This document shows positions 5,637 to 18,362 of a DNA stretch of 64,000 nt, piece after piece. Position 1 is the first letter of the stretch; every line of letters begins with the position of its first letter. The notes under the pieces are model-generated. The model ran no database searches. It was not told the DNA's origin and saw only the letters and a list, made by a program, of their open reading frames with translations. The stretch is from Magnetococcales bacterium (GTDB lineage Bacteria > Pseudomonadota > Magnetococcia > Magnetococcales > Magnetaquicoccaceae). The DNA lies in assembly GCA_015231755.1 (NCBI GenBank), contig JADGAZ010000005.1, positions 62,001-126,000 on the forward strand, given 5' to 3'. Made by a program: the position numbers and the translations under genes.

Positions 5637-5737
5637 GCCTTGGCGTTCGGTCGGATTCAACGGTTCTGCCCCATGGCAGACTCGCGGAGTGAAGCGCCAT
5701 TTTTTTGCAGACCTTTTTTCACGCCAAGGGATCCCCC

Positions 5738-7303
5738 ATGAGTCAAAATTCTTTGCCCCGCATCCTGATCGTCGATGACGAGCAGCACAATCTTCAGGTG
5801 CTGGGCAACGCGCTGAAAAATCTGGCCCAGATTTTTGTCGTCACCTCCGGCGAACAGGCCTTGCGCAAGCTGGCCACCGCCCCATATCCGGACATGATTC
5901 TTCTGGATATCGTCATGCCCAGGCTCGACGGCTTCGAGGTGTGCCGCAAGGTCAAGGAGCAGGCGGTTCTGGCCGACATTCCGGTGATTTTCATCACCGC
6001 CATGGATTCCGAGGCCGACGAGGCCAAAGGATTTGCCCTGGGGGCGGTGGATTTCATCACCAAGCCGATTCGTCCGGCCATTGTCGTGGCCCGGGTTTCC
6101 ACCCATCTGACTTTGCAGGCCCGCAAGCGGGAGTTGATCCACGCCCGCAAGGAGGCCGAAGAGGCCAATAAGGCCAAAAGCGCTTTTCTGGCCACCATGA
6201 GTCATGAAATCCGTACCCCGCTCAATGGCATTCTCGGCATGGCGGAACTCCTGAGCGAAATCGACATGGCCGACCAGGGACGGGAGTATGTCCGGGGGCT
6301 GATCAACTCCGGTCGGGCGTTGTTGACCATCATCGACGATGTGCTGGACTACTCCAAGATCGAAGCCGACAAGTTGCGCATGGAGTCCATCCCCCTGGAT
6401 CCCCACGCCATGTTGAACGATCTGGCCATGCTGTTCCGGGGGTTCGCCGGCAAACGCCGGATCGATTTCAAGCAAGACATCGCCGACACTCTGCCGGAAT
6501 GGATTCTGGGGGATCCGACCCGGTTGCGTCAGGTGCTGGTCAACCTGCTTTCCAACGCGGTGAAGTTCACCCATGCAGGCAGCGTGACCCTTTCTGCCAC
6601 CCCTGCGATGGATTCCAGGCTGGGACGGGCGGTGCGCTTCGAGGTGCGGGATACCGGGGTGGGCATCTCCCGGGAGCAGTTCGCGAAACTGTTCCAGGCC
6701 TTCGAGCAGGCCGAAACCTCCACCACCCGCCGTTATGGCGGCACCGGATTGGGACTGGCGATCACCCGCAAGCTGGTCGGATTGATGCAAGGGCGCATCG
6801 AGGTGGAAAGCACCCCCGGGGTGGGTAGCTGTTTTGTGGTGGTGCTGCCCATGGAGATGTGTGATCCCCAGTCGTCCAGCTCCCGGGACAGCTCTTTGGC
6901 GGATCCGGGATTTGCCCGGGGGGCGCGGATTCTGGTGGCTGAGGGCGATCCCATCAATCGGGCGGTGTTGCGGGGCATGTTGAAACGTTTCGATCTGCGT
7001 GTGGAATTCGCCGACAATGGACGGCAGGCTCTGGAGATTCTGGCGCGTTCCGCCTTCGATTTGATTTTCATGGATTGCCTGATGCCGGAAATGGATGGTT
7101 ACGCCACCTGTCGGGCGATTCGTGCCCAGGAGCAGGATCGTCACACCCCCATCGTGGCCATGACCGCCTTTGCCTTGCAGGAGAACCGGGAGATGTGTCT
7201 GGCCGCGGGCATGGACGACTGTCTGTCCAAACCTGTCACCCGTTGGGGGATTCAATCGGCCATGATGCGTTGGCTTTCGGATCGGATTGCAACGCCTTCT
7301 TGA
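5738..7303 (+). CDS. REC-HisKA-HATPase-REC hybrid histidine kinase (soluble)
   Basis: A cytoplasmic hybrid kinase with no membrane segment. An N-terminal receiver (Asp57 in LLDIVMPRLDG) is followed by a short coiled coil, HisKA with His156 in [10 protein letters not shown], HATPase_c with [11 protein letters not shown], and a second receiver with Asp446 in FMDCLMPEMDG. The N-terminal receiver implies that another kinase controls it. In the second receiver the usual acidic pair reads AEGD, so one pocket residue is Gly instead of Asp or Asn. The ATG at 5738 was chosen because it follows AAGGGA and begins right before the receiver; an upstream TTG at 5705 is in frame but less likely. It forms a run with the Maf gene and the 7TM kinase. 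Confidence 0.9.
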   Translation: MSQNSLPRILIVDDEQHNLQVLGNALKNLAQIFVVTSGEQALRKLATAPYPDMILLDIVMPRLDGFEVCRKVKEQAVLADIPVIFITAMDSEADEAKGFALGAVDFITKPIRPAIVVARVSTHLTLQARKRELIHARKEAEEANKAKSAFLATMSHEIRTPLNGILGMAELLSEIDMADQGREYVRGLINSGRALLTIIDDVLDYSKIEADKLRMESIPLDPHAMLNDLAMLFRGFAGKRRIDFKQDIADTLPEWILGDPTRLRQVLVNLLSNAVKFTHAGSVTLSATPAMDSRLGRAVRFEVRDTGVGISREQFAKLFQAFEQAETSTTRRYGGTGLGLAITRKLVGLMQGRIEVESTPGVGSCFVVVLPMEMCDPQSSSSRDSSLADPGFARGARILVAEGDPINRAVLRGMLKRFDLRVEFADNGRQALEILARSAFDLIFMDCLMPEMDGYATCRAIRAQEQDRHTPIVAMTAFALQENREMCLAAGMDDCLSKPVTRWGIQSAMMRWLSDRIATPS

Positions 7304-7358
7304 CGGCAATCCGGCCATGGGAGAGGCGGCGGGGAGGGGGGTGAGAGGGCCGGAGGTC

Positions 7359-7516
7359 ATGGTTGCATCGGAAGTCCAATGGTGCGCCGCAGCGTGGCGT
7401 CAAGGTCTGGAAGACCAGGGGGACGGGGGTGATCCGCGGGGCTGAACCTGGAGGAACTGGAGGCGGCGGTGGGACGCGCCATCATGTTGTTGCAAGAGTA
7501 TGCTGGGGAGGAATAA
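7359..7516 (+). pseudogene. possible small ORF split by a frameshift
   Basis: An ATG at 7359 with a very good Shine-Dalgarno sequence (CCGGAGGTC) opens a short frame that stops at 7443-7445 after 28 codons. A second frame shifted at the GGGG run near 7438 then reads LNLEELEAAVGRAIMLLQEY and ends at TAA 7514-7516. The two halves joined would give a charged helical protein of about 52 residues. This could be a decayed gene, a sequencing indel in the G run, or chance. No family is recognised. Confidence 0.3.
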
Positions 7517-7841
7517 TGAATTTGATGTCATCGGAGGTGCGGAAAAAAATAAATCAAAAATAATAAATCATTATTCTTGATGTGATAAAAACCGCTCCTG
7601 GATACGCCTGTCCCCTGCGCTTATGTTGCACCGCAATGCGCTAGTGGGTTGATAGAAAATATGTATTAACAATCAAGAATATTGATATAGTCTTTTATAG
7701 AAGAAATTTATTCTTGAAGGTCGGAACTCTTTTGTATATTATGGTCTCTATACGGGGACATCAGCAAAATTGGTGAATGTTAAAACTAAGAATCAATATT
7801 AAACATCTTGAGTTTTCCTAGAACATCCCAGGAGTGACCTA
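7517..7841 (+). promoter_or_regulatory. AT-rich upstream region and promoter of the dsr genes
   Basis: This stretch is clearly AT-richer than its neighbours. A sigma70-like promoter is visible: -35 TTGAAG at 7714-7719, 17 nt spacer, -10 TATTAT at 7737-7742, giving a leader of roughly 90 nt before dsrA. The nonamer ATTCTTGAT occurs at 7573-7581, inverted at 7672-7680, and as ATTCTTGAA at 7710-7718 overlapping the -35. These could be operator sites. The dsrA ribosome site AGGAG lies at 7830-7834. Promoter and operator are read by eye only. Confidence 0.5.
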
Positions 7842-9089
7842 ATGAGCGAACAAGAACAGCAGAAAGACCAATCTTTTCAACTCAATCCAACGCCCATGCT
7901 GGACGATTTGGAAAATGGTCCTTGGCCAAGCTTCATCAAGGGCTTCAAGGAGACGGCGCAACGCACCGGCAAGACCATGGTGCGCGGTGTTCTCGATCAA
8001 CTCAACTATTCCTACGAGACCCGCATGGGGTATTGGAAGGGGGGTGTGGTCGGCGTTCATGGTTATGGCGCCGGGATCATCAGCCGCTACAGCATGATCA
8101 GCGACAAGTTCCCCGAAGCCACCGAATTCCACACCATGCGCATTCAGCCTGCTCCTGGTCTGCATTACAATACCAAGTCCCTGCGCCACATGTGCGATGT
8201 CTGGGAAAAATACGGCTCGGGTCTGATCTCCATGCATGGCCAGACCGGCAACCTGCAACTCCAGGGCATCAAGGCGGAGTACGTCCAGGCCTGTTTTGAC
8301 GAACTCAACCAGGAAGGCTGGGATCTGGGTGGCGCCGGCGCCACGGTGCGTACCGGTCTGTCCTGCGTGGGTCCGGCCCGCTGCGAGCAGGCCTGCTACG
8401 ACACCTTGCACGCCCATGGCAAAGTACTCTCTTATTATTCCGATCTGACCCACCGTCCCCAACTCCCCTACAAAGCCAAATTCAAGTTCTCTGGATGCCC
8501 GAATGACTGCACCAACAGCATTCAGCGCAGCGACTATTCCGTGATCGGAACCTGGCGGGACGATATCAAGATCAACGAAGCCGAAGTGGAAAAATTCATC
8601 GAGGCCAAGGGTGTGGACTATCTGGTCAACAACGTCATCACCCGTTGTCCCACCAAAGCCATCACCCTGCAAGGCGGCAAAATGGTCATCGACAACCGGG
8701 ATTGCGTGCGCTGCATGCACTGCCTGAACGTCATGCCCAAGGCCCTGTCTCCCGGAGACGACCGTGGCATCACCCTGCTGGTGGGTGGCAAGGGTCACCT
8801 GAAAGTGGGCAACATGTTGGGATCGGTCATGGTTCCCTTCATGAAGATGGAAACCGAAGAGGATATGGATGCCTTCATCGAGTTGGTGGACCGCATGATC
8901 GACTACTGGTCGGAAAACGGCCTCGATCACGAACGGATCGGCGAGTGCATTGAACGGGTCGGCATGCAGCAGTTCTTGGACGCTGTTGGCCTGGAGGCGT
9001 CCGTGGAGATGGTCTCCCATCCCCGCGACAATCCGTTCTTCAAGGCCGGTGAGTACTCCACCGACGAAGACGAGCGGGATGCCGCCTGA
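7842..9089 (+). CDS. dsrA: dissimilatory sulfite reductase alpha subunit
   Basis: DsrA pairs with DsrB in the alpha2-beta2 sirohaem enzyme that interconverts sulfite and sulfide-level sulfur in the cytoplasm. The sirohaem-[4Fe-4S] binding cysteines are visible as Cx5C (Cys175, Cys181, in SCVGPARC) and Cx3C (Cys219, Cys223, in GCPNDC). A ferredoxin-like insertion follows with RCPTKAI and DCVRCMHC. The length of 415 residues is normal for the family. The start follows AGGAG at good spacing. It is the first gene of dsrA-dsrB-dsrL. Whether the enzyme runs oxidatively or reductively cannot be read from this sequence by eye; the neighbouring dsrL favours the oxidative or disproportionating type. 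Confidence 0.95.
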   Translation: MSEQEQQKDQSFQLNPTPMLDDLENGPWPSFIKGFKETAQRTGKTMVRGVLDQLNYSYETRMGYWKGGVVGVHGYGAGIISRYSMISDKFPEATEFHTMRIQPAPGLHYNTKSLRHMCDVWEKYGSGLISMHGQTGNLQLQGIKAEYVQACFDELNQEGWDLGGAGATVRTGLSCVGPARCEQACYDTLHAHGKVLSYYSDLTHRPQLPYKAKFKFSGCPNDCTNSIQRSDYSVIGTWRDDIKINEAEVEKFIEAKGVDYLVNNVITRCPTKAITLQGGKMVIDNRDCVRCMHCLNVMPKALSPGDDRGITLLVGGKGHLKVGNMLGSVMVPFMKMETEEDMDAFIELVDRMIDYWSENGLDHERIGECIERVGMQQFLDAVGLEASVEMVSHPRDNPFFKAGEYSTDEDERDAA

Positions 9090-9152: not shown

Positions 9153-10229
9153 ATGGCTACTGCGCGTACCTGGAAGACCGTCGAGAACGGTCCCCATGAT
9201 CTGGACGAATTCCTGCACCCCGTCAGCAAAAAGAACTATGGCAAATGGAGCCATCACGAACGGCCCCGTCCCGGTGTCTTGAAACATGTGGCCTTGAGCG
9301 GCGACGTGCTTTTCACCGTGCGTGCCGCCACCCATCGTCAGGTGACGGTGGATATCGTGCGTCGCTTGTGTGACCTGGCGGACCGTTACGCGGATGGTTA
9401 TCTGCGTTGGACCGTGCGCAACAACGTCGAATTCATGACCCCCAACGCCGAAAACGTCGATCCGTTGATCGCCGCTTTGGAAGCCGCCGGTCATCCGGTG
9501 GGCGGCACCGGCCCCTCGGTGAGCGCCATCGCCCATACCCAGGGCTGGCTGCACTGCGACATCCCCGCCGTGGACGCCTCGGGCGTGGCCAAGAGCATCA
9601 TGGATGCCCTGTTCCACGACTTCGCCCACGAAGAAATGCCCAACCGGGTCCGTCTCACCACCTCTTGCTGCGAAATCAACTGCGGTGGTCAGGCCGACAT
9701 CGCCGTGGTGGTGCAACACACCCGTCCGCCGCGCATCAATCACGAAATCCTCGCCAACGTCTGCGAAATGCCCAGCACCGTGGCCCGTTGCCCCGTGGCC
9801 GCGATCCGTCCCACCACGGTCAATGGCAAACCCTCGCTGATGGTCGTCGAAGAAAAATGCATCTATTGCGGCGCCTGCTTCGGTGCCTGCCCGGCCATGG
9901 AAATCAACCATCCGGAACACTCCAAGCTCGCCATCTGGGTCGGCGGCAAGAACTCCAACGCCCGCACCAAACCCGCCAACATGAAACTGGTGGCCCATGG
10001 CCTGCCCAACAATCCGCCCCGTTGGCCGGAAGTGGGGGAACTGCTCAAAAAAATTCTCTCCGCCTACAAGGCCGGTGGTCGGGATTGGGAGCGTCTGGGT
10101 GAGTGGATCGATCGCATCGGCTGGAAACGGTTCTTCGAGGAGACCGGTCTGCCCTTCGACAAGTTCATGATTGACAATTATCGTCATGCCCGTGTGTCGT
10201 TCAATCAGTCCGCCCACATCCGGTTCTGA
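9153..10229 (+). CDS. dsrB: dissimilatory sulfite reductase beta subunit
   Basis: DsrB is the partner of DsrA in the sirohaem sulfite reductase. At 358 residues it has the usual size. Visible features are TVRNNVEFMTP, the cysteine cluster in TTSCCEINCGG (about residues 168-176), ARCPVAAI, and a ferredoxin motif CIYCGACFGACP near residue 235. It starts 63 nt after dsrA with AGGGAG as ribosome site, and dsrL begins 12 nt after its stop, so the three genes are almost certainly one transcript. The C-terminal region is the conserved DsrB tail. Confidence 0.95.
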   Translation: MATARTWKTVENGPHDLDEFLHPVSKKNYGKWSHHERPRPGVLKHVALSGDVLFTVRAATHRQVTVDIVRRLCDLADRYADGYLRWTVRNNVEFMTPNAENVDPLIAALEAAGHPVGGTGPSVSAIAHTQGWLHCDIPAVDASGVAKSIMDALFHDFAHEEMPNRVRLTTSCCEINCGGQADIAVVVQHTRPPRINHEILANVCEMPSTVARCPVAAIRPTTVNGKPSLMVVEEKCIYCGACFGACPAMEINHPEHSKLAIWVGGKNSNARTKPANMKLVAHGLPNNPPRWPEVGELLKKILSAYKAGGRDWERLGEWIDRIGWKRFFEETGLPFDKFMIDNYRHARVSFNQSAHIRF

Positions 10230-10241
10230 CGGGGGAGCGCG

Positions 10242-11975
10242 ATGATCGAAACCAACCCCATGTATCAATCGGCCAAGGACTGGGTCTACCCGCCGTTTTC
10301 CCTGGAGCAAGGGCTGGATCGCGTGGTCGCCTATGGCGACCGCAGCGGCAAATGCCCGACCTACGTGGAGCGGTTGCCTCCCTGTTCCAACGCCTGTCCC
10401 GCCGGAGAGGACATCCGAGGCTATCACAACCTGATCCGTGGCACCTGGAAGGATGGTCCGGATGCGTGGGAGGCGGCTTTCCGTCGTCTCACCCGCACCA
10501 ACCCCTTTCCCGCCGTCATGGGACGGGTCTGCCCGGCTCCGTGTCAGGGGGCGTGCAACCGTCAATATCGGGATGAAACCATCCACATCAACGCCGTGGA
10601 ACAGGCCATCGGCGAATATGCCATCGAAAAGAAACTCGCCTACCCCAAACCGGCTCATAAAACCGGCAAAAAGGTGGCCGTGGTGGGTTCCGGTCCCGGT
10701 GGTTTCTCCTGCGCCTACCAGATGGCCCTGCGTGGCCATGATGTGGTGATGTTTGAAGCCAGTGACAAGCCGGGTGGCATGATGCGTTATGGCATCATGG
10801 GCTACCGGGTGAGTCGCGACGTGCTGGAGGCCGAGTGCCAACGGATTCTCGATCTGGGCGTGGAGTTGCGTTGCAACGTGCGCGTCGGGGTGGATGTCTC
10901 CCTGGAGCAGCTCAGCCGCGATTACGACGCGGTCTTTTTGGCCGTCGGCGCGCAGAAGGGGCGGGGACTGCCCATTCCGGGTGCGGACTGTGCCAACGTG
11001 ACCAATGCCATCGATTTCCTGCGCAGCTTCGAGCTGCAAGGTCATGCCATGTCCATCGGTCGCCATGTGGCGGTGATCGGCGATGGCGACGTGGCCATGG
11101 ACGTGGCCCGTCTGGCCCTGCGTCTGGGGGCGGAACAGGCCACCTTGATCTCCGGCGTGCCCCGCGAAGAGATGAAGTGCTCGGCTTACGAGTTCGATGA
11201 AGCCGTGGCCGAAGGCACGCGCATGGTCTATCAGGCTGGAACCGTCGAAGTGTTGCGGGACGGCAATGCGGTCAAGGGACTCAAGTGCGTCCAGATGGTC
11301 AAAAAAGAGAAGGGCGAAGAGGGATGGAATCATCCGATTCCGTTCTTCCGCTTCAAGGTCCAGCCCGGCACCGAATTTGTGCTGGATGTGGATCAGGTGG
11401 TGGCCTCCATCGGTCAAACCACCGATATGACCGGCCTGGAACAGACCACGGGTGGCACGCCTTGGCTGAAGGTCGATCACAATCAAAAAATCGAAGGCTT
11501 TGCCAATGTCTTCGGTGGTGGTGACGCGGTGAGCATCACTTTGCTGACCACGGCCATCGGTCATGGCCGCAAGGCCGCCGAGTCCATGGATCTGCTGCTG
11601 CGGGGCGAGCCGTTGCCCCCCAAGCCGGGACGCCGCGATGTGGTCCGCTACGAAAAGCTCAAGTCGGATTATTTCGTGCCATCCGCGCAAAAGAAACGGC
11701 GGCTGGATCATCCCCAAGTCGTCAAGGGTTCCTGGCGCGAGGTGTTGATCCCCTTGTCCCGCGAAGATGCGAAGGAGGAGTCGGCGCGTTGCATGAGCTG
11801 CGGTTTGTGCTTCGAGTGCAATCAGTGCATGTTGTTCTGTCCTCAACACGCCATTACCCGTTTTCCGGGCAACCCCGAAGGGGAGGTGATGTTCACCTTC
11901 TATGAGCGTTGCGTGGGTTGTCACATTTGTGCCGAGATCTGCCCCACCGGGTATATCGATATGGGCATGGATTGA
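10242..11975 (+). CDS. dsrL: DsrL-type NAD(P)H:acceptor oxidoreductase (GltD-like iron-sulfur flavoprotein)
   Basis: This protein resembles the small subunit of glutamate synthase with an added ferredoxin. The N-terminal iron-sulfur region carries CSNACPAGEDI and CPAPCQGAC. The FAD fold starts at VAVVGSGPGG near residue 147, and the nucleotide fold at VAVIGDGDVAMD near residue 277. The C-terminus holds two [4Fe-4S] cysteine sets (CMSCGLC...CNQC...CP and CVGCHICAEICP). DsrL associates with DsrAB and transfers electrons to or from NAD(P)H; it is typical of sulfur oxidisers and some disproportionators. At 577 residues it is shorter than the roughly 650-residue form described from purple sulfur bacteria. 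It lies 12 nt after dsrB. Confidence 0.88.
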   Translation: MIETNPMYQSAKDWVYPPFSLEQGLDRVVAYGDRSGKCPTYVERLPPCSNACPAGEDIRGYHNLIRGTWKDGPDAWEAAFRRLTRTNPFPAVMGRVCPAPCQGACNRQYRDETIHINAVEQAIGEYAIEKKLAYPKPAHKTGKKVAVVGSGPGGFSCAYQMALRGHDVVMFEASDKPGGMMRYGIMGYRVSRDVLEAECQRILDLGVELRCNVRVGVDVSLEQLSRDYDAVFLAVGAQKGRGLPIPGADCANVTNAIDFLRSFELQGHAMSIGRHVAVIGDGDVAMDVARLALRLGAEQATLISGVPREEMKCSAYEFDEAVAEGTRMVYQAGTVEVLRDGNAVKGLKCVQMVKKEKGEEGWNHPIPFFRFKVQPGTEFVLDVDQVVASIGQTTDMTGLEQTTGGTPWLKVDHNQKIEGFANVFGGGDAVSITLLTTAIGHGRKAAESMDLLLRGEPLPPKPGRRDVVRYEKLKSDYFVPSAQKKRRLDHPQVVKGSWREVLIPLSREDAKEESARCMSCGLCFECNQCMLFCPQHAITRFPGNPEGEVMFTFYERCVGCHICAEICPTGYIDMGMD

Positions 11976-11995
11976 TGGGCAAGGAGAGAAAAAAC

Positions 11996-12355
11996 ATGAA
12001 CAAGTCGGATGTCGTCAAACAGTTGGATCAGGCCATCGCCGAATCCCGCGCTTGGTCCGAAAGCGGTTGGACCATGACCTTTGGTCGCAACGCGGTGCGG
12101 GTCGCTTCGTTGACCGAGGCCAAGGCGCAGTCGGATCGTTTTGTCAATCGTCAAGAAGCTCTGGCCTATTGGCGCAGTGTGGCCGAGGCCGGAGAAGAGA
12201 CTGCGGTTCAGGGTGAAAAGGCCAAAGCGGCCCTGGATCGTGGTGATCTGCGTTATGCGGAAGGGGCGGTCTATCATGCCGCCTATGTGGAAAAACGGCT
12301 CAACAAGCCGGTCTCCACCTGGGAGCCGGTTCTGGCTGGCATCCGTACCCTCTGA
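11996..12355 (+). CDS. small helical protein of unknown function, dsr-linked
   Basis: This 119-residue protein is not recognised. It has no cysteine, no signal peptide and no membrane segment, and it is predicted to be mainly helical (for example QLDQAIAESRAW and EALAYWRSVAEAGEET). The start ATG follows AAGGAGA and lies 20 nt after dsrL, and a hairpin 23 nt after the stop closes the unit, so it is the last gene of the dsr transcript. The lack of Cys rules out a DsrC, DsrE or TusA-like sulfur carrier. A structural or assembly role with DsrL or DsrAB is only a guess from position. Confidence 0.75.
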   Translation: MNKSDVVKQLDQAIAESRAWSESGWTMTFGRNAVRVASLTEAKAQSDRFVNRQEALAYWRSVAEAGEETAVQGEKAKAALDRGDLRYAEGAVYHAAYVEKRLNKPVSTWEPVLAGIRTL

Positions 12356-12377
12356 GAGTAAAGCGTTTCAAGACGTG

Positions 12378-12411
12378 TCCGGAAACGGGGCTTGCCTGTC
12401 CCGTTTCCGGA
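12378..12411 (+). terminator. putative terminator of the dsr unit
   Basis: A perfect 12-bp stem (TCCGGAAACGGG at 12378-12389 with CCCGTTTCCGGA at 12400-12411) and a 10-nt loop follow the last dsr-linked gene. Only a short mixed T/C tract follows, so termination strength is uncertain. Confidence 0.6.
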
Positions 12412-12572
12412 TCGTTTCCTCCCCCCGGATTTCGATTCACCTCCCCCCTAAGCTTGAGCGTTTTAAAAATGGCAGCACCCTGCTGGCTTTGCCCGCGTCA
12501 TGCGTGGCAGGATCGGTCGGAATGGATCGGCCCCACGCATTTTTTTGTTTTGGTGGATGGGGTGTCATTGGG

Positions 12573-12817: not shown

Positions 12818-15091
12818 ATGAACACCTTGACCTTTGTGACCTATCTGACCCGGGATATGGAATTGATGCCGGTTGGGCCGTTGACCTTGGCCACTCTGGC
12901 GCGTGAACGGGGCGTGGATGTGACCGTGGTGGATCTGCCCGCGGTGCCGGAAGAACAAGAATGGGCGTCGTCGTTAGCCCAACGGGAGGTGGTGGGATTC
13001 AGCACTCTGTGTTCCACCTTTCATCGTTCGTTGCGTCTGGCGGGATTGGTCAAGGCGCTCAATCCCCGGGTGACGGTGGTGATGGGAGGACCACAGGCAT
13101 CGGCGGTGGCGGTTTTGCTGCTGCAACGTCATGGATGTGTGGATCTGGTATTCCGGGGAGAGGCGGAAACGGGATGGACCGCCTTTTTGGATGGCGCCCC
13201 CTGGTCCGCCATTCCGGGTCTGGTGTACCGCCAGGGGACGGAGATCCTGGAGACACCCCCCGCGCCCTTGCTGATGGATCTGGACCGTCTGCCCCTGCCG
13301 GCTTTCGACCTGTATCGACCCACCGGAATCAGTGTGCCGGTGGAGACCGGGCGGGGCTGTCCTTTTGCCTGTACCTATTGTTCCACCAACGAATATTTCT
13401 CCCGTCGGTTTCGTGCCAAGAGTCCCGGGCGGATTCTGGCCGAAATGGACCAGTTGCACGCCCTTTACGGCATGCGCGCGTTTGAAATGATCGAGGACTC
13501 CTTTACCACCAATCGCCGCAAGATCATCGAATTTTGCGCGGCCATCGGCCAGCATCCCCGGCAGTACCATTGGCAGATCAGCGCCCGTCCGGATCTGGTG
13601 GATGCGGAGTTGTTGGAGCATTTGCGCCTCGCTGGATGCCAGGGCATCTATTTCGGGATGGAGACCGGTTCCCAACGCATGCAGAAAGTGGTGCGCAAGA
13701 ATCTGCGGGTGGCCCGCGCTGTGGATAACATCCTGCTGACCCGACACGCTGGATTGGCGACCACGGTCTCGTTCATCATCGGCTTTCCGGATGAGACCGA
13801 GGCGGATGTGCAAGAGACGTTGCGGGTGTTCGGTACCTTGTCCGAGTCGCGGGATGTGGTGTTGCAGATGCATCTGCTGTCGCCGTTGGCAGGATCGGCC
13901 CTGGTGGCCGCCAACACGGAGCTGGCCTATGACGGTATGCCCACCGATTTTAACGAATCCGATGAGCGCGACGCATTGTCGATGCCGGATCTGGAACGAT
14001 TCCGGGAAGAGAGCGGGTTGTTTCCCCATCGGCACTATTTTGCCCAGACCGTGCTGCCCCGTGGCCGTTATCTGTTTTTGGCGTATGGGCTGCGGTTGAT
14101 GGCTTGGTATTTTCCCAATTTTTTGCACCGGGTGTTCGGCCAGTGCCAGGAGGCGTGGATCGATTATCTGCTGACCATACCGGTTCCGGAGGAGATGGTG
14201 AGGGATCCTTCATTTCCCGAGCCTATGGCCGTGTGGAGTGAACGGGGTTATGCGCTCTGTGTGGATTTTGCCCGCAGGGTCGATGTAGTGGGTTTGTGGG
14301 AGCTTTTGGCCTATGACCGGGCCTACAGCCGGGTGAGCCATGGACTGGAAGAGACGCCGGTGGTGGTGCGATTGCCCCGGGTATTGGCCGGGCGCAACCC
14401 GGGGCGTTTGTTGCCGGAGAGGGGGGACGCCGACTCCGAGTGGGCGTCGTTTGTGGTGAGTCGTCTGGAATCGGGGATGGTGGATGTTTCCATTCAAATG
14501 ACCGCCGAGGAGATGGAACGGCGTCTGGAGGAGATTTGTGGCCCGTGCGGGGAGTGTTGTCTGGATGAGGATGGGCTGATGTGTGGCGTCGAGGAGTGGG
14601 GCCTGATCACGCAATTTCTGGAGAGTCAGCAACAGAGCGTGCCGTCCATCACACCAACGGCGTGGCAGGGGTTGGTCCTGGAAGGGGGGATTCGTTACCT
14701 GGCTCAAACCGAAGACGGGGAGCGTACTTTGCATGAGACTTATGAGACCGCCTTGCAGGAGGCCGGGGAGGATGGTTGGGTGCGGCATGCCTGCGCCCAT
14801 CTGGAGTTGGAGGCGGACCGGCATCGATGCGCCCTTCAGGGGGTGAAGCCGGCAGAGTGTGTGGCCTATCCCTATCGACCCATGGAGGATGGAAACGGTG
14901 GGTGGCGGTTGGAGCCGGTGGCGGAAGTCTCGCAGGGGCGATGTGCCTTGATCAGCTTGTTGCGGGATCGGGCCATGTTTCGGGAACAGTACATGGAATG
15001 GGCCACTGGACGCATGGGGAGGAGATCCGGGGCGGTCGCGTTGAGTCGGATGCATGGGGAAGAAAAGCATGAGCAGGAACGCCGGGCTTGA
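12818..15091 (+). CDS. B12-binding radical SAM protein with C-terminal YkgJ-like CxxCxxCC domain
   Basis: Residues 1-150 form a cobalamin-binding Rossmann-like domain of the radical SAM/B12 family (MPVGPLTLATLAR and VTVVMGGPQAS). The radical SAM core follows with Cys181, Cys185 and Cys188 in GCPFACTYC, plus FEMIEDSFT, GIYFGMETGS and FIIGFPDET. After a helical region, residues 574-581 read CGPCGECC, then Cys589, then HAC and RHRCALQGVKPAECVAYPY. That order matches the zinc- or iron-chelating YkgJ family (CxxCxxCC...C...C..RP..C..YP). The reaction cannot be assigned; relatives carry out methylations or rearrangements. The ribosome site is weak. It sits alone between the dsr unit and a strong terminator. 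Confidence 0.85.
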   Translation: MNTLTFVTYLTRDMELMPVGPLTLATLARERGVDVTVVDLPAVPEEQEWASSLAQREVVGFSTLCSTFHRSLRLAGLVKALNPRVTVVMGGPQASAVAVLLLQRHGCVDLVFRGEAETGWTAFLDGAPWSAIPGLVYRQGTEILETPPAPLLMDLDRLPLPAFDLYRPTGISVPVETGRGCPFACTYCSTNEYFSRRFRAKSPGRILAEMDQLHALYGMRAFEMIEDSFTTNRRKIIEFCAAIGQHPRQYHWQISARPDLVDAELLEHLRLAGCQGIYFGMETGSQRMQKVVRKNLRVARAVDNILLTRHAGLATTVSFIIGFPDETEADVQETLRVFGTLSESRDVVLQMHLLSPLAGSALVAANTELAYDGMPTDFNESDERDALSMPDLERFREESGLFPHRHYFAQTVLPRGRYLFLAYGLRLMAWYFPNFLHRVFGQCQEAWIDYLLTIPVPEEMVRDPSFPEPMAVWSERGYALCVDFARRVDVVGLWELLAYDRAYSRVSHGLEETPVVVRLPRVLAGRNPGRLLPERGDADSEWASFVVSRLESGMVDVSIQMTAEEMERRLEEICGPCGECCLDEDGLMCGVEEWGLITQFLESQQQSVPSITPTAWQGLVLEGGIRYLAQTEDGERTLHETYETALQEAGEDGWVRHACAHLELEADRHRCALQGVKPAECVAYPYRPMEDGNGGWRLEPVAEVSQGRCALISLLRDRAMFREQYMEWATGRMGRRSGAVALSRMHGEEKHEQERRA

Positions 15092-16861: not shown

Positions 16862-16935
16862 GCGGGCGTAGTTTAGTGGTAGAACGTTAGCCTTCCAAGC
16901 TGATCATGGGGGTTCGATTCCCCCCGCCCGCTCCA
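16862..16935 (+). tRNA. tRNA-Gly (anticodon UCC)
   Basis: Acceptor GCGGGCG/CGCCCGC, D-arm TTTAGTGGTAGAA, anticodon loop CTTCCAA (TCC), T-arm GGGGGTTCGATTCCCCC, CCA encoded. Confidence 0.95.
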
Positions 16936-16994
16936 ATTACGTGGCGAGCAGGAGCTTGGCCGCGTATCTCTAAGTTGTGCAAGCGTAGTTTTAT

Positions 16995-17069
<75 letters not shown>

Positions 17070-17133
17070 TATTTGACCCCGGTGGTTTCTGGCCCAGCCA
17101 AAATTTGCAATCCTGCAGGGTGGAGAGATTGTC

Positions 17134-18324
<1,191 letters not shown>

Positions 18325-18362
18325 ACCAGGGCATGATGTCACCAGGGATCCGGGAGAGTTAG

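Follow-up and report, generated by a model that had tools for sequence, protein, structure and literature searches.

The dsr locus of one Magnetococcales bacterium raises the question of what a small protein of no known family does directly behind dsrL. The locus lies in a stretch of 64,000 nucleotides (nt), called the window here (assembly GCA_015231755.1, contig JADGAZ010000005.1, positions 62,001 to 126,000). In the window, the sulfur-oxidation genes dsrA, dsrB and dsrL are followed on the + strand by a reading frame at 11996..12355, which encodes 119 amino acids plus stop from an ATG start and is labeled P0001. The product is all-helical in a structural model. Of the two DsrABL kinds in this order, P0001 accompanies just one. 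We tentatively propose, with somewhat less than even confidence, that it is a dedicated soluble accessory subunit or effector that would bind the DsrAB-DsrL-1B enzyme and set its activity.

P0001 is a real, conserved and selected gene. An AAGGAG ribosome-binding site (11981..11986, +) lies 9 nt before the ATG, and the strong ribosome site, the reading frame and the start codon given in the initial annotation were all confirmed. Alignment A1 and the P0001 tree take in 25 of the 27 homologous loci described below (G130 and G173 were left out). The aligned members are 115-126 residues long, and an ATG start is possible in all of them; L050 has an additional GTG one codon earlier. In 21 pairs from seven genomes of the genus, the ratio of nonsynonymous to synonymous changes (pN/pS) was 0.09-0.35 and changes fell mostly at third codon positions, indicating purifying selection.

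To place the gene, we surveyed 48 Magnetococcales genomes, our sample of the order. P0001 was matched in 27 of them, in exactly one copy each. All 27 neighborhoods were read, and in every one the gene lies on the same strand behind a DsrL-1B-like dsrL; this holds also for G023, with a contig that starts within dsrL, and for G005, whose dsrL is divided between two contigs. The homologs were found neither mostly outside dsr loci nor in genomes without dsrAB, and the initial description of an unassigned, dsr-dedicated small protein stands.

Two kinds of DsrL were compared within the order, using 23 kind-A sequences, 11 kind-B sequences and one other flavoprotein; the nicotinamide adenine dinucleotide (NAD)-binding stretch was compared for all 35. 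Kind A, which is the kind in the window, has 574-589 residues and lacks both a YRR motif and an insertion in the NAD-binding domain. Kind B has 625-630 residues, the YRR motif and an insertion of some 35 residues. Our criteria for DsrL-1B (short form, no YRR, no DsrL-1A insertion) come from passages of Loffler et al. 2020 (PMC7596348), which place the DsrL of Magnetococcus marinus in DsrL-1B and describe the DsrL-1B of Chlorobaculum tepidum as having 577 positions and using NAD(H) only. The dsrL of the window (10242..11975, +) showed all of these features: it likewise encodes 577 residues and has neither the YRR motif, which is that of DsrL-2, nor the DsrL-1A insertion. Judged by length and motif features rather than by a tree with named references, kind-A DsrL looks DsrL-1B-like; P0001 is a separate protein and not a part of it. 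A second DsrABL copy has been reported in UR-1 and relatives within the Magnetococcales (PMC6783814), and our two kinds are probably those of UR-1 and relatives. P0001 marks one kind only, and the passages of PMC6783814 make no mention of a gene behind dsrL.

The linkage between P0001 and kind A was close to complete. Kind-A dsrL, counted at an identity of at least 64% and present in pieces in G005, G007 and G023, occurs in 28 of the 48 genomes, and 27 of those 28 carry P0001. The remaining one, G007 (57% complete), has a contig that breaks off within dsrL. P0001 is absent from all 20 genomes without kind-A dsrL. Kind-A dsrL and P0001 are missing together in three of the 11 genomes of genus g1 and in two of the seven of genus g2. 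Both kinds of dsr locus occur together in 11 genomes, 10 of them judged by dsrA and one, G012, by dsrB and dsrL; each of these has just one P0001, which lies at its kind-A locus. Kind A alone is present in G027 (4,719,581 bases), the order's only genome in a single contig. Thirteen stretches without kind A were read, 12 of kind B (L065 among them, which stops within dsrB) plus that of G025, and P0001 was absent from all of them.

At G025:C276:153-1745 and G026:C122:41818-43422 lies a DsrL-like flavoprotein that shares 45% identity with the DsrL of the window. The G025 copy lies on another contig than dsrAB, and G026 has no dsrA above the cut-off. This flavoprotein may be a third DsrL type or have another function.

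Homolog searches covered the Magnetococcales, 350 other Pseudomonadota, plasmids and viral contigs. Among the 350 genomes, P0001 gave one partial match only (G117; 20 bits, 52 model positions, expectation value [E] 7.3e-4), which we took as chance. It was not found in plasmids or, with the protein as query, in viral contigs. In nine of the 350, a full dsrA (51-56% identity) is accompanied by dsrB and dsrL close by, and P0001 is absent from all nine loci. Because kind-B loci and these nine genomes have dsrAB and dsrL and lack P0001, the protein is not a general requirement of DsrAB or DsrL. Its linkage to kind A and its absence elsewhere thus point to a role with the kind-A enzyme. The plasmid search with DsrL returned four flavoproteins at 32-37% identity, and viral scans with DsrB and DsrL queries found no DsrL-1B locus and only three contigs with dsrB. 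These are the IMG/VR contigs L094, L095 and L096, of which L095 also has a complete dsrA and the other two a partial one; by eye their neighbors look phage-like, as for auxiliary dsrAB in phages.

The same linkage could arise if P0001 were a passenger with its own function in the cell, kept in the operon by descent and taking no part in DsrABL chemistry. Much of the linkage is what vertical descent inside a single order would produce, and P0001 is order-restricted, evolves faster than dsrL and is separated from it by other genes in nine of the 27 loci. Against this, P0001 is missing wherever kind-A dsrABL is missing, within genera g1 and g2 as well, and every genome that has it also has kind-A dsrL. 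The next gene on the + strand of the window, a B12-type radical S-adenosylmethionine (SAM) protein gene, was found in only two of the 30 type-A stretches searched, though several of these stop close behind P0001. We regard the passenger explanation as distinctly unlikely.

The spacing behind dsrL bears on a further explanation. The distance from dsrL to P0001 is at most 70 nt in 18 of the 27 loci (two starts, those of L092 and L093, are approximate) and 697-1171 nt in the other nine (L044, L045, L047, L048, L049, L051, L052, L054 and L055). A CopD-like membrane gene stands in between in all nine; its L049 copy matched PF05425 with 31.1 bits, just below the cut-off of 32.1. In six of the nine it is followed by an HspQ gene (YccV-like, TIGR02097), and both genes lie inside the dsr unit. 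Eight of the nine long-distance loci form one group in the DsrL tree (Shimodaira-Hasegawa-like approximate likelihood ratio test [SH-aLRT] 95); the ninth, G023 with its split dsrL, is not in the tree, which holds 25 of the 28 kind-A sequences and leaves out those in pieces (G005, G007 and G023). A link to the CopD-like or HspQ genes was rejected as the main role of P0001, because in 18 of the 27 loci neither gene separates dsrL from P0001.

HspQ is a proteostasis factor. Its gene in front of P0001 in six of the 27 loci fits a chaperone that matures or assembles DsrL-1B or DsrAB; it would serve iron-sulfur, flavin or siroheme insertion or protect the apo-protein and be needed only during build-up. 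Such a protein could well be small, all-helical and encoded last in the operon, and it would draw on the same genetic linkage as the effector reading. It is at odds with the searches, which gave no significant match to any chaperone family and no HspQ match in the remaining type-A stretches searched, and with the fact that other DsrL and DsrAB must mature without P0001. We consider a maturation factor unlikely, and it is the nearest rival of the effector reading. The role in assembly or docking of DsrL or DsrAB that was suggested initially is compatible with the data.

Next, we asked what the protein itself reveals. AlphaFold2, run with the 25-member alignment, gave a confident helical bundle (predicted local distance difference test score [pLDDT] 96.5, predicted template modeling score [pTM] 0.87), in support of the initial description as helical. 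The modeled helices span residues 3-18, 20-23, 39-44, 52-81, 85-101 and 110-118, and the model is all-helical except for two bridges of two residues each. Sixteen columns are invariant among the 25 members, including W20, G24, W25, F29, G30, E54, W59, E68, G73, E99 and W109; no Cys or His is among them. The initial annotation had called the protein cysteine-free, and this holds for P0001 of the window; seven of the 25 aligned homologs carry one or two cysteines, none of them conserved. Our data suggest a soluble-looking protein.

These features were set against known families. Searches of Pfam and NCBIfam (P0001 and the 25 members), PHROG (P0001) and the sequences of PDB (P0001 and the profile) gave no significant match. 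With hmmscan of the 25 members at E up to 1, 11 Pfam and eight NCBIfam families were listed. The best weak Pfam matches were PspA/IM30 (E 0.0074, three of 25 members), Herpes_TK (0.027, three of 25) and DUF5813 (0.054, two of 25); the best elsewhere were at E 0.012 in NCBIfam (two of 25 members), 0.22 in PHROG, and 0.064 (protein) and 0.97 (profile) in PDB. All were taken as chance and rejected as signs of kinship. A Foldseek search of PDB returned no structure at E 0.001 or lower. In VIA-align, the best structural match was 1x8z_C (Z 11.6, 100 residues, 2.3 A), and copper-storage proteins scored Z 9.5. The guidance for this program is that helical bundles need a Z of about 13; the P0001 matches lie below this, in the common-bundle range. 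Kinship to the plant pectin methylesterase inhibitors (1x8z, 1xg2) was not accepted for this reason; P0001 is like them in being an up-and-down helical bundle, and no relation is claimed. Copper-storage proteins use cysteines, and a copper storage role is unlikely because P0001 has no conserved ones. A sulfur carrier of the DsrC, TusA or DsrEFH type was likewise rejected (no cysteine in the P0001 of the window, none conserved in the 25 members), as were cysteine- or histidine-based cofactor and carrier roles in general, neither residue being conserved. DsrR (HesB/IscA-like) was dismissed, since no such family appeared in the Pfam and NCBIfam matches and the P0001 model is all-helical. The searches support P0001 as a putative family without significant match in these libraries. 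A literature search, which reached few subscription papers, found no description of the gene among the papers listed.

Could P0001 nevertheless be a dsr gene that has already been noted, such as DsrU or a hypothetical gene behind dsrL in other DsrL-1B carriers? In some green sulfur bacteria, the gene behind dsrL is dsrU. The initial annotation had held that all named Dsr accessory proteins are sulfur carriers, membrane subunits or cofactor enzymes. This proved wrong on two counts in the passages of the literature at hand: DsrD activates reductive DsrAB allosterically (Ferreira et al. 2022, cited in PMC11406059), and named Dsr proteins of unknown function do exist, namely DsrT and DsrQ/DsrU (PMC6018796, PMC11406059). 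PMC6018796 lists DsrQ/DsrU as of unknown function, and PMC7596348 gives the order dsrNCABL-hyp-dsrQ-dsrEFH for metagenome genomes of groups that it lists as DsrL-1B carriers. Such genes may hold the same position as P0001. In C. tepidum, by contrast, the tags directly after dsrL CT0854 are those of dsrEFH, and the 350 other Pseudomonadota, a search silent on other phyla, contain no homolog from outside the order. We consider this identity quite improbable; if it held, the family would be wider and partly named already.

The effector reading is favored because P0001 has no conserved Cys or His, is small and soluble-looking, is strictly linked to kind A and has a precedent in DsrD. P0001 would be a dedicated small soluble accessory protein, in the Magnetococcales, of the reverse dissimilatory sulfite reductase DsrAB whose genes accompany that of an NAD-linked flavoprotein of the DsrL-1B type. 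It would bind DsrAB-DsrL-1B as a non-catalytic helical subunit or effector, and once bound it would set the activity of the enzyme, as DsrD does on reductive DsrAB. The likeness to DsrD is that of a small non-catalytic protein of the dsr set, a model of how P0001 could work. Kinship did not emerge in the tests run, with no DsrD family among the Pfam and NCBIfam matches of the 25 members, and the two differ in that P0001 has an all-helical model and accompanies DsrL-1B-like loci, whereas DsrD goes with the reductive pathway. We infer translation together with dsrL, a cytoplasmic place, the contact with DsrL or DsrAB and the sign of the effect.

Several observations weigh against this reading. 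The binding to DsrL or DsrAB is a proposal drawn from gene linkage rather than from direct evidence of contact. Uncorrected P0001 distances correlate with DsrL distances in 23 genomes (r 0.89) and with DsrA distances in 21 (r 0.90), which is what shared history or plain vertical descent is expected to give and is not proof of contact. By the slope of these distances, P0001 evolves at about 1.5 times the rate of DsrL, and the lowest pair identity, 32%, is low for a core subunit. P0001 is missing from the kind-B DsrABL loci read within the order and from the nine loci of other Pseudomonadota, so that DsrABL in general does not need it. In C. tepidum, which serves as a DsrL-1B model, one of the two dsrL genes (CT0854, the other being CT2247; PMC7596348) is followed directly by dsrEFH (CT0855-0857, PMC7174415), according to passages of these papers. 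Finally, the invariant E54, E68 and E99 could possibly form a metal or ligand site, so that the non-catalytic role is a presumption. Few forks of the P0001 tree are well supported, and the tree does not speak for strict co-descent. Two of its three f11 rows (L049 and L054) stand beside f8, unlike in the DsrL tree; this discordance was given no weight because the alignment has 121 columns and the branches are long.

The genes around P0001 outline its putative transcription unit. In front of it lie dsrA (7842..9089, +; TIGR02064, 526.8 bits) and dsrB (9153..10229, +; TIGR02066, 484.3 bits), both above the NCBIfam cut-off. The product of 10242-11975 is a flavin adenine dinucleotide (FAD)/two-ferredoxin (iron-sulfur) protein with PRK12771 as its best model (688 bits); because no DsrL model was among the family matches, the name dsrL rests on domain order, position and alignment. 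Its stop codon occupies 11973-11975, and the P0001 ATG starts 20 nt further on. The initial annotation had P0001 co-transcribed with dsrL. A promoter scan of the + strand listed no site between dsrB and P0001, a weak hint in favor; otherwise co-transcription is deduced from spacing and strand. Just 3' of the P0001 stop, RNA folding predicted a stable hairpin with a weak T tail (12371..12417, +), the probable end of the unit. The 75 nt folded (12356-12430) gave -35 kcal/mol and a z of -4.25, and a scan for T-tailed terminators gave the hairpin no score. The radical-SAM gene begins at 12818, with 462 nt between it and P0001. With this hairpin behind P0001 and a radical-SAM neighbor that is seldom found, the unit is dsrA-dsrB-dsrL-P0001, with P0001 as its last gene, as annotated at the outset.

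Other features of these loci were recorded as leads. The large reading frames at 5657-7360 (-) and 16873-18342 (-) have no Pfam match, and the former is common to L056 and L032 at 56% identity. A divergent gene of about 410-430 amino acids lies upstream of dsrA in seven stretches (L049, at 6467-7756, and L044, L045, L047, L051, L053 and L054); its L049 copy has a DACNV sensor domain (PF21751) and is possibly a regulator. An open frame of up to 204 amino acids upstream of dsrA is common to L034, L035, L037, L042 and L057 (cluster 10). The L037 copy has no Pfam match in the direction of dsrA, and the frame may be the shadow of an opposite-strand gene. Gene clusters came from a greedy gene caller, which chose antisense reading frames in several loci, and serve as leads only; those on which statements here rely were rechecked by tblastn, except cluster 10. 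Elsewhere in the same genome, other contigs carry one dsrE/tusD-type gene and two dsrC/tusE-type genes. This content is compatible with a sulfur oxidizer and a weak sign of one, because the control E. coli passes both cut-offs too.

P0001 bears on two open matters, the passage of electrons between DsrAB and NAD by way of DsrL and the choice of the direction of the reaction. As a gene kept with exactly one DsrABL kind, it offers a direct handle on DsrAB-DsrL-NAD electron transfer and a marker that separates the two Magnetococcales kinds, one of which has no agreed physiology (PMC6783814, in the passages available). In a bolder version, to which we give little credence, P0001 would found a new effector family that tunes or switches the NAD-linked DsrAB-DsrL-1B in the oxidative direction, and its distant relatives would be found in unnamed genes that follow dsrL in deltaproteobacterial (SAR324-type), verrucomicrobial and green sulfur bacteria. 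If that were true, the P0001 family would be the functional counterpart of DsrD for sulfur oxidation.
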